Positions 25,467 to 28,453 of a stretch of DNA of 35,244 nucleotides are shown here, in pieces. How positions within the stretch are numbered: the first letter of the stretch is position 1; each line of letters begins with the position of its first letter. Source of the DNA: Verrucomicrobiota bacterium (lineage in GTDB: Bacteria > Verrucomicrobiota > Verrucomicrobiia > Chthoniobacterales > UBA10450). Below the pieces are notes generated by a model that was not told the DNA's origin, did not search any database, and was given only the letters and a program-made list of their open reading frames with translations. The position numbers and the translations under genes were made by a program. Where the stretch lies: assembly GCA_003221195.1 (NCBI GenBank), contig QHQO01000047.1:1-35244 (forward strand). The letters are read 5' to 3'.

Positions 25467-25553
25467 CACAAGGTTAAAACGGATGGGGACGAACACGCTG
25501 GCACGAGTTGCTTGACCTTGTAACCTTTCTAACCTTTCACTTTTTAACTTTCC
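25467..25553. repeat. Short-word quasi-repeat (AACCTTTC / GGTTAAAA) upstream of accA
   Basis: cacaaggttaaaacgg ... gaccttgtaacctttctaacctttcactttttaactttcccc. Confidence 0.5.
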
Positions 25554-25555
25554 CC

Positions 25556-26542
25556 ATGGATTGGCAACCGCTCGATTTTGAAAAACCGATCTTCGAACTG
25601 GAACGGCGTTTACAGGACTTAAAGAATCACTCCAACGCGCACGATGTCGACCTTGATTCCGCTGTTAAGGCCCTTGAGGGAAAACTTCGTGAAACACGAC
25701 GGGAAATTTATGGCAAGCTCACTGCGTGGCAGCGGGTGCAAATCGCGCGGCACACGCAGCGGCCCTTCGCCATGGACTACATCGAACGGTGCTTTACGAA
25801 TTGGATTGAGCTGCATGGAGATCGCCGCTTTGCCGACGATCGAGCCATGCCTTGCGGCCTGGCCACACTTGGCACGCAACGTTGTGTCATCATCACCCAT
25901 CAAAAGGGCCGCAACACAAAAGAAAATGTGATGCGCAATTTCGGTTGCGCCCATCCTGAAGGTTATCGCAAAGCGCTGCGATTAATGCGACTTGCTGAAA
26001 AATTTCGCGTGCCGGTCATTTCATTGATCGACACGCCAGGCGCTTTTCCCGGGATCGGATCCGAGGAACGTCATATTTCAGAAGCAATTGCAGTAAATCT
26101 CTTCGAAATGATGAGGCTTCGCGTGCCAATCGTTGCCGCGGTCATTGGCGAGGGTGGCTCAGGGGGCGCGCTGGGGATTGGCGTGGCGGACCATGTAATG
26201 ATTCTGGAAAACGCGTATTATTCCGTGATCAGCCCCGAAGCCTGTTCCGCGATTTTGTGGAGAGACCGCCGGCACGCCGCTGAAGCAGCCGAGGCGCTCA
26301 AATTGACCGCGCAGGATTTGTTGAAACTGGAGGTAGTGGACCAAATCATTTCTGAACCGGTAGGCGGCGCGCATCGAGACTATGATTCTGTTGCGGTCAA
26401 TCTTGGCGCGGCACTGCGCCGGGCGCTGGAGGAGATTTCTAAAATTCCAGCCGACGAACTGCTGGAAAAACGATATCGAAAGTTTCGCCGCCTGGGTATC
26501 TTTTCCGAAAGCAAAACCGTCACCGCCTCGCCTCGCTCTTAA
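25556..26542 (+). CDS. accA: Acetyl-CoA carboxylase carboxyltransferase subunit alpha
   Basis: MDWQPLDFEKPIFELERRLQDL...HTQRPFAMDYIERCFTNWIELHGDRRFADD...GCAHPEGYRKALRLMRLAEKFRVPVISLIDTPGAFPGIGSEERHISEAIAVNL...VISPEACSAILWRD. Confidence 0.97.
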   Translation: MDWQPLDFEKPIFELERRLQDLKNHSNAHDVDLDSAVKALEGKLRETRREIYGKLTAWQRVQIARHTQRPFAMDYIERCFTNWIELHGDRRFADDRAMPCGLATLGTQRCVIITHQKGRNTKENVMRNFGCAHPEGYRKALRLMRLAEKFRVPVISLIDTPGAFPGIGSEERHISEAIAVNLFEMMRLRVPIVAAVIGEGGSGGALGIGVADHVMILENAYYSVISPEACSAILWRDRRHAAEAAEALKLTAQDLLKLEVVDQIISEPVGGAHRDYDSVAVNLGAALRRALEEISKIPADELLEKRYRKFRRLGIFSESKTVTASPRS

Positions 26543-26547
26543 TTCTG

Positions 26548-27351
26548 ATGTTTGGGACTTGGGGTAAATTAGCGGGTGTTTGGCTCAGTGCGCTTGCTGC
26601 TGTCGCCTTACCGCGGGGCAGCGCGGCGGCCGTAGAGTTCCGTTTCGATCGCGACACCTTCGCGTTTCAAAACGCCACCGTGCTGAAATACCACGACGGG
26701 ATTTCGTTTTTCCGACCGAAGTCGGAAGTGAGTGATCCTGCCAATAGCTATACTCGCCGCTGCTTCGTCATGACCCGCACGGCGATGCAGTTCCGCAAAT
26801 TCGCCCGTTTCAATACACACGGCGTTCCATTAAACGATCAGGAACTCGCACGGCGCATTCGTGCTGTCGCGCGCCGGAAGCCTTGGCTCGAAGTATTGCC
26901 GGAAAATCAGCGAATCGTCTTCCCAAGCTACCCGAATCTACGTGAGATAAGCAAATCCCACACTCAAGTCTTCGAGAACAATATCGGCAGCGGCTTCATG
27001 AGTTATTTTCGGCCGAGCAATATCCGCATGGTCTTCCTGGACAGTAAAGGATATCAGGAGAAAACGCACCAGAACCTCGATGCCTCCCTCGCGCGTGGTG
27101 ACACGTTCGTGGCTTTTCTTACCACTTATCCAAAAATGAGTATAAACCACGCGGTGCTCATTTATGGCCGGAAAAAAAGTCGCCCCGGAGACGAACTCGA
27201 ACATTATTTGGTTTATGATCCAAACCATGCCGAAGCGCCGCGTGAGCTAACATGGTCGCCTCGCGAATGTGCCTTTGCTTATCAGAAAGACATAGACTTC
27301 ATCGGTGGATTCGTTCGGGTTTACCAGGCTTACGACAAGCCGTTGCAGTGA
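26548..27351 (+). CDS. Secreted protein of unknown function, tandem paralog 1; possible papain-like fold
   Basis: Signal peptide; TRRCFVMTRTAMQFRKFARF, SINHAVLIYGRK, HYLVYDPNHAEAPRELTWS, AYQKDIDFIGGFVRVYQAY; aligns end to end with 27374..28180. Confidence 0.85.
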   Translation: MFGTWGKLAGVWLSALAAVALPRGSAAAVEFRFDRDTFAFQNATVLKYHDGISFFRPKSEVSDPANSYTRRCFVMTRTAMQFRKFARFNTHGVPLNDQELARRIRAVARRKPWLEVLPENQRIVFPSYPNLREISKSHTQVFENNIGSGFMSYFRPSNIRMVFLDSKGYQEKTHQNLDASLARGDTFVAFLTTYPKMSINHAVLIYGRKKSRPGDELEHYLVYDPNHAEAPRELTWSPRECAFAYQKDIDFIGGFVRVYQAYDKPLQ

Positions 27352-27373
27352 AAACGATGGACGCGTTCTTGAT

Positions 27374-28180
27374 ATGATTCCCGGTAATTCGCGTACAGCG
27401 GCAGGTTTTTGGCAGCTCGGCGCTTTCCTAGCTCTCGTCCTTCTACGAAGCAGCGCGGCAGCGTCCGATTTTCGCTTCGGCCGCGATACGGTCGGCTTTG
27501 CCAACGCAACCGTCTTCGAGTATCGCGAAGGTCATCCCTCTTTGCGGCGGCAAAGAGAGAAGGGAGAGCCGAAAAGGTACACTCGCCGCTGTTTTGTCCT
27601 ATGCCGTACGACGATGCAGTTTCACAAGTTCGCTCGCTTCGATCCGCACGCCCCTCCGTTGGACGACAACGCGTTGGCCGCTCGCATTCGAAATGTCACC
27701 CACCGGGCGGCTTGGGAAAAGCCGTTGCCGACAAATCAGCGCGTCGTCTTCCCGGGCTACGCTAACTTGCGCGCAATGAGCGATGCGCGCCGCGAAGTTC
27801 TGCGAAGAAATATCGGCCTTGGCTGGCCGACTTACTTTCGGTTCGGGAATTTCCGGATGCTTTTCGAGCACGACTCTAATTACCACAAGGAAACCCAAGC
27901 CAACCTCGATGCAGCTTTGGCGCGCGGCGAGTTATTTGTCGGTTTTCTCACAACCTATCCTCGTCTCAGCATCAATCACGCGGTCTTGGTCTACAAACGA
28001 AAATCAGCCTCTCTGAATGACGGAATTGATCACTATCTCGTTTACGACCCCAATCATCCGGAATCACCGCGTGAGCTCAGCTGGTCCTCCCGCGACCGTG
28101 CTTTCGCATATCAAAAAGATTGGGATTTCATCGGCGGCTTCGTTCGCGTTTATCAAATTTACGGCAAGTGGCTGCAGTAA
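27374..28180 (+). CDS. Secreted protein of unknown function, tandem paralog 2; possible papain-like fold
   Basis: ATG at 27374 followed by a signal peptide (QLGAFLALVLLRSSAAASDF); TRRCFVLCRTTMQFHKFARF, SINHAVLVYKRK, HYLVYDPNHPESPRELSWS, AYQKDWDFIGGFVRVYQIY. Confidence 0.85.
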   Translation: MIPGNSRTAAGFWQLGAFLALVLLRSSAAASDFRFGRDTVGFANATVFEYREGHPSLRRQREKGEPKRYTRRCFVLCRTTMQFHKFARFDPHAPPLDDNALAARIRNVTHRAAWEKPLPTNQRVVFPGYANLRAMSDARREVLRRNIGLGWPTYFRFGNFRMLFEHDSNYHKETQANLDAALARGELFVGFLTTYPRLSINHAVLVYKRKSASLNDGIDHYLVYDPNHPESPRELSWSSRDRAFAYQKDWDFIGGFVRVYQIYGKWLQ

Positions 28181-28204: not shown

Positions 28205-28309
28205 ATGCCAGAGACTCCGTCACCACCGAAACCGACTCCACCAACTCCCAAGCCGCCTCCTGAGCCATTGCCGCCGAATCCGCCGCCAGTTCCGCCGGTA
28301 GGAAGGTGA
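28205..28309 (+). CDS. Proline-rich micro-ORF (34 aa), MPETPSPPKPTPPTPKPPPEPLPPNPPPVPPVGR
   Basis: ATG at 28205 (alternative ATG 28199) with gaggg at 28194-28198; stop TGA at 28307-28309; lies directly after paralog 2. Confidence 0.45.
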   Translation: MPETPSPPKPTPPTPKPPPEPLPPNPPPVPPVGR

Positions 28310-28340
28310 TGTAACGATCGGCGCCATCCGCTCCTTCGCC

Positions 28341-28434
28341 TGTCATGTTGAGCGAAGCGAAACATCTCTGATTGTCGCTTTCTGTTACGGCCAATCAAAA
28401 AAAATCCGAGATTCTTCGCTGCGCTCAGAATGAC
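28341..28434. repeat. Family A REP-like inverted repeat
   Basis: tgtcatgttgagcgaagcgaaacatctctgatt ... aaatccgagattcttcgctgcgctcagaatgac. Confidence 0.75.
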
Positions 28435-28453
28435 GTTTCTTGATGCCGGGATT

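Follow-up and report, generated by a model that had tools for sequence, protein, structure and literature searches.

A tandem pair of exported proteins, very probably of an undescribed papain-like family linked to aryl-polyene-like lipid clusters

Two adjacent genes in the window, the whole 35,244-nt stretch of DNA that was analysed, very probably encode members of an undescribed exported enzyme family with a papain-type Cys-His-Asp site. The family is new within a known superfamily, and its association with lipid clusters is also new: outside Candidatus Udaeobacter, the nearest named relatives of the genome that holds the pair (G000), the family gene lies in aryl-polyene-like ketosynthase (KS) clusters. 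Export-type N-termini, an invariant triad, a papain-like predicted fold, and linkage to and co-occurrence with KS and chain-length-factor (CLF) genes are directly supported. The preferred reading, given about an even chance of being right, is that Cys72, His201 and Asp224 of this papain fold serve extracytoplasmic acyl transfer or hydrolysis in aryl-polyene-like lipid clusters. Because its genes sit inside fatty or polyene lipid clusters elsewhere in soil bacteria, the family probably carries out a step that has been overlooked in the synthesis or anchoring of envelope lipids.

An exported, triad-bearing family linked to polyene-type clusters in Verrucomicrobiota and Rokubacteria offers a concrete gene for deletion or assay. 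For the protein of Udaeobacter and its relatives, so far unannotated, it is a first clue to function; in Udaeobacter-type genomes the ketosynthase pair of the pathway is kept and its genes are scattered. The open-access literature searched yielded no paper that connects aryl polyene clusters with a papain-like enzyme, which is not proof that none exists.

The gene pair and its family

Copies 1 and 2 align end to end (58% identity over 260 aa, E = 1e-106), and both open reading frames and the 22-bp gap between them were confirmed as first described in a sequence-only reading. The mechanical ORF list starts copy 2 at a GTG (27305); the ATG was used instead (Table 1). All the sequence blocks quoted in that reading were found in copies 1 and 2, and the sole Cys aligned between the mature proteins is C72/C73. 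The signal peptides it had assigned were borne out by eye, both N-termini being type I-like (basic residue, hydrophobic core, A-x-A). Using a simple script, a strong hydrophobic N-terminal stretch was found in 144/155 family members and a lipobox-like motif in 23/155. These features of the sequence point to a protein that is exported or lipid-anchored.

Table 1. Features of the gene pair and its neighbours (positions in the window)
Feature	Position	Strand	Remarks
accA, acetyl-CoA carboxylase carboxyltransferase alpha	25508..26542	+	Pfam ACCA E 3e-140; directly upstream of copy 1
Copy 1, exported papain-like protein	26548..27351	+	267 aa; ATG start, 5 bp past accA stop codon
Cys72 codon, copy 1	26761..26763	+	Predicted nucleophile at start of helix 72-85; 155/155 relatives; model
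His201 codon, copy 1	27148..27150	+	On strand 200-209; 153/153; aligned with C39_2 catalytic His
Asp224 codon (YDPN), copy 1	27217..27219	+	Just past strand 218-223; 153/153; aligned with C39_2 catalytic Asp
Copy 2, exported paralog	27374..28180	+	268 aa; ATG at 27374; 58% identical to copy 1
Cys73 codon, copy 2	27590..27592	+	Equivalent to Cys72; copy 1/copy 2 alignment
His202 codon, copy 2	27977..27979	+	Equivalent to His201; copy 1/copy 2 alignment
Asp225 codon, copy 2	28046..28048	+	Equivalent to Asp224; copy 1/copy 2 alignment
Proline-rich microprotein	28205-28309	+	34 aa, MPETPSPPKPTPPTPKPPPEPLPPNPPPVPPVGR; downstream of copy 2

Among orthologs of copies 1 and 2, dN/dS was 0.19-0.37, indicating purifying selection; since relatives are also present in well over 100 genomes, both copies were taken to be real genes. 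Between the copies dS was about 1.9, near saturation. In a maximum-likelihood tree, several forks of which are weakly supported, the copy-1-like and copy-2-like clades split before the Udaeobacter radiation, and one of the two copies was lost in many Udaeobacter species. The early split and the near-saturated dS agree with the older duplication that had been proposed.

Single-sequence and profile searches of Pfam, NCBIfam, PHROGs and PDB sequences returned nothing relevant. Foldseek comparison with viral models gave nothing useful, and phage, plasmid and viral collections contained no family member, so that nothing pointed to a mobile or phage origin. The family was found in 63/384 genomes of the class (soil Verrucomicrobiota) and in 44/95 genomes of a phylum centred on a Rokubacteria genome; Nevskia has it too, as do almost all of the Udaeobacter genomes searched and the cultured Chthoniobacter flavus Ellin428 (L119).

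Predicted fold and active site

Cys72, His201 and Asp224 are invariant in the rows that cover them (counts in Table 1) among 157 distinct relatives, and this invariance spans Verrucomicrobiota, Rokubacteria and Nevskia. Homologs without the Cys, which the sequence-only reading had named as evidence against itself, were absent from the 155 relatives covering the position. N42, F82, F243 and G254 are likewise invariant across the 157. D36 and N42 are the only invariant positions before Cys72, and no conserved oxyanion Gln was found there in the family alignment. The putative catalytic residues follow one another in the order Cys, His, Asp, which is typical of the papain-like (clan CA-like) superfamily.

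AlphaFold models of copy 1 (pLDDT 85.5, pTM 0.82) and of a Chthoniobacter flavus homolog 28% identical to it (pLDDT 90.0, pTM 0.84) both place the Cys at the start of a helix, the His near the start of a strand and the Asp right after the next strand. The predicted secondary structure around the three residues is papain-like in both models. Against the PDB, neither model gave a Foldseek match at E<=0.001, and papain-fold matches had E above 0.1. The best neighbours were nevertheless largely papain-fold proteins. Mac-1/IdeS, IdeC and staphopain were near the top for copy 1, below the BtaeB effector domain (prob 0.96). With the C. flavus model, IdeS, Josephin BpJOS, IdeC, Tse1/Tae1, staphopain, SERA5, ananain and EP-B2 recurred among unrelated matches. 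For Mac-1/IdeS, IdeC and staphopain, among the best Foldseek matches of both models, TM-scores are about 0.2, there is no sequence match and the resemblance is one of fold only.

The family profile was compared using hhalign with Peptidase_C39_2 (PF13529) members drawn from the same class. The His/Asp segments aligned in register (prob 39, E 3e-4): His201 falls on the C39_2 catalytic His and Asp224 on its catalytic Asp. As controls, 18 neighbour families gave E>=0.17 and 40 column-shuffled C39_2 profiles gave prob <=0.3. An alignment extended with low-confidence columns put Cys72 on the C39_2 catalytic Cys, this half not being significant alone. Forced global alignment of the whole protein was poor (prob 2.7), and homology to C39_2 is therefore claimed for the His/Asp half only. 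Both share the order Cys, His, Asp. In the family, Cys and His are about 129 residues apart with an extra helical insertion, the oxyanion Gln is missing, and the N-terminal half gives no significant alignment. Pfam C39_2 did not match the pair even at E<=10, nor any of 62 relatives. The conclusion is that these proteins very probably form a separate family of papain-like enzymes, related to C39 but outside C39_2 by Pfam's criterion.

The papain- or C39-like resemblance noticed at the outset was supported by the invariant triad, the two models, the Foldseek lists and the C39_2 profile match. The proposal had been of a papain-like peptidase; the first word stood, and the second was left as one option beside acyltransferase and amidase. 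Papain folds are also used by acyltransferases and amidases, and peptidase activity is for this reason a candidate only.

Lipid clusters and the chain-length factor

In loci of the Rokubacteria phylum, a KS lay within 9 kb of the family gene on the same strand in 19/20 and an ACP in 17/20. Among 40 Verrucomicrobiota loci, a sample including close relatives of the pair, there were a KS within 9 kb in 14, a CLF in 12, an ACP in 11 and a FabA-like dehydratase in 15, together with LolA-like (12), AMP ligase (19), radical SAM (11), glycosyltransferase (11) and YdjC (8) genes. A ketoreductase was also among the cluster genes in many loci. The neighbours were confirmed using Pfam (PP-binding, MMPL, LolA, FabA, AMP-binding, Radical_SAM, Epimerase, Trp_halogenase, GT21, SDR, ketosynthase and YdjC). 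At locus L225 the order is family gene, KS, CLF, ACP, MMPL, LolA and dehydratase, and the AMP ligase is encoded on the opposite strand. A hopanoid (HpnJ/HpnK) cluster, considered from the YdjC and radical SAM neighbours, was set aside, the same loci having KS, CLF, ACP, MMPL and LolA genes.

The family loci were compared with the aryl polyene (ape) cluster of E. coli CFT073. Homologs of the ape KS, KR, MMPL, LolA and glycosyltransferase were found in them, as were homologs of the dehydratase, AMP ligase, ACP and acyltransferase, whereas the 18 ape proteins include no relative of the family. Identity with ApeA, the E. coli APE lipoprotein, was ruled out (ApeA is 129 aa long, and the family matches no protein of the ape cluster).

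Co-occurrence was scored using a profile of the CLF clade that adjoins the family in Verrucomicrobiota, which separated this clade (>=249 bits, the G000 CLF being held out) from other ketosynthases (<=71). A CLF of the clade was found in 56/63 family carriers versus 65/321 non-carriers among the 384 genomes of the class (Fisher p 1.5e-25) and, by genus, in 41/47 carriers versus 27/124 non-carriers (p 3e-15), in tests that handled ancestry up to genus level and scored few candidates per genome. The CLF lay within 12 kb of the family gene in 21 genomes. With 7/63 carriers lacking a CLF and 65 CLF genomes lacking the family, the two do not strictly need each other.

The pair's own copies lie outside any lipid cluster and follow accA. 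In the same genome, a KS-CLF pair of the clade that adjoins the family elsewhere was found away from them among unrelated genes (contig C174, L260:9103-11453, - strand), and MMPL-type proteins, of whatever pathway, are encoded. Most Udaeobacter genomes searched retain the CLF, and several of those without it are incomplete. The aryl-polyene-like pathway is apparently dispersed in Udaeobacter.

Several features of the clusters were noted separately. Rokubacteria loci, L204, L206 and L203 among them, contain operon-like runs of the family gene, several ketosynthases, an ACP and an FAD-dependent oxidoreductase, the last related to a tryptophan-halogenase-type cluster; these runs are apparently an undescribed type II polyketide or fatty-acid cluster. 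At L227:12279-14531 and L229:11916-14165 (both +), a single ORF (about 750 aa) spans both KS and CLF, pointing to a natural fusion. Radical SAM genes recur beside lipid clusters in L101, L219 and L225 (e.g. L225:94-1098, -), and their products carry a CxxxCxxC motif and look BioB/HydE-like by eye.

Candidate role, alternatives and the Udaeobacter neighbourhood

Export, the Cys-His-Asp triad and an acyl-lipid pathway with its own exporter and periplasmic carrier together suggest a Cys-thioester enzyme acting on exported lipid. In the proposed scheme an acyl thioester would be formed on Cys72 outside the cytoplasm, and the acyl group would then be passed to an envelope acceptor, or an amide or ester hydrolysed. 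This would take place during processing or anchoring of the exported lipid, the order of steps being conjectural. In Udaeobacter, with the cluster dispersed and the family gene after accA, the same role may have been retained. A narrower version, offered tentatively and considered fairly doubtful, is an extracytoplasmic papain-fold acyltransferase or deacylase that would use the Cys thioester to move a polyene or fatty acyl group, once exported, off its carrier and onto an acceptor in the envelope. To our knowledge, such passing of acyl groups by a papain fold is known in no aryl-polyene-like cluster. For E. coli aryl polyene, the outer-membrane anchoring molecule and the attachment step have been described as unknown or inferred (PMC8253772).

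By analogy, a precedent for ACP-linked acyl transfer is provided by BtrH, a papain-fold ACP-dependent acyltransferase described as closely related to C39 (PMC10318531). The family resembles BtrH_N (PF14399, butirosin ACP:aminoglycoside acyltransferase) in having a papain fold near C39 and in being linked to ACP genes, but neither the pair nor its relatives match BtrH_N in Pfam. BtrH_N members were sought as a comparison profile in the Rokubacteria-phylum genomes and none was found. Direct contact with ACP, a cytoplasmic protein, is doubtful because the family looks exported. This difference in compartment counts against the preferred reading, as do the lack of an individually significant Foldseek match, homology to C39_2 confined to the His/Asp half, the missing oxyanion Gln, the position of the pair outside a lipid cluster, the carriers without a CLF and CLF genomes without the family, the partial correction for ancestry in the co-occurrence tests, and the E. 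coli APE cluster, which works without a family homolog.

The main alternative, a secreted peptidase or cell-wall amidase that trims protein or peptidoglycan, would account for the lipid neighbourhood by envelope co-regulation or by processing of a partner protein. It agrees with the nearest folds and profile (Mac-1/IdeS, staphopain, Tse1/Tae1, C39_2) and with the export-type N-termini, but recurrent linkage to KS, ACP and CLF in two phyla and the co-occurrence with CLF are unexpected of a general peptidase, and it was regarded as rather unlikely. That the protein is non-catalytic, binds a lipid or cofactor and only looks like a papain fold was judged very improbable. Non-catalytic papain-fold relatives usually lose the Cys, and here Cys, His and Asp are invariant in papain order, with the Cys opening a helix; in favour of such a protein are the lack of an individually significant structure match and the conservation of N42, F82, F243 and G254, which equals that of the triad.

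A further alternative concerns the Udaeobacter pair itself, which may have left the lipid pathway for another role, e.g. with the proline-rich microprotein, its proximity to accA being incidental. The order accA, family gene, microprotein is fixed in the genus, the KS-CLF pair is on another contig among unrelated genes, and related genomes such as L237-L239 also have no KS nearby. Such a departure was nevertheless considered unlikely, given the CLF kept in most Udaeobacter genomes searched, the incompleteness of several without it, and a triad fully kept in both copies.

In close relatives the family gene is preceded by accA, whose product makes malonyl-CoA, and followed by the microprotein and a convergent esterase. 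Co-occurrence with accA, raised in the sequence-only reading, accordingly held in close relatives but not elsewhere, where the contexts differ. The downstream micro-ORF mentioned with it proved to be a real gene, as indicated by a dN/dS of 0.05-0.18, and is kept near the family gene across Udaeobacter. Its core pattern has a single occurrence in each of 26 genomes of the genus, 25 of which have it no more than about 400 bp past the family gene; the other genera searched do not have it. An ORF related to the microprotein was seen in a sister genus (L238). The microprotein has no signal peptide and is possibly a partner or substrate of the family enzyme. Just past it, at 28340-28440, is an imperfect inverted repeat (TGAGCGAAGCGAAACATCT ... 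AGATTCTTCGCTGCGCTCA) that by eye looks like a dispersed REP/MITE-like element.
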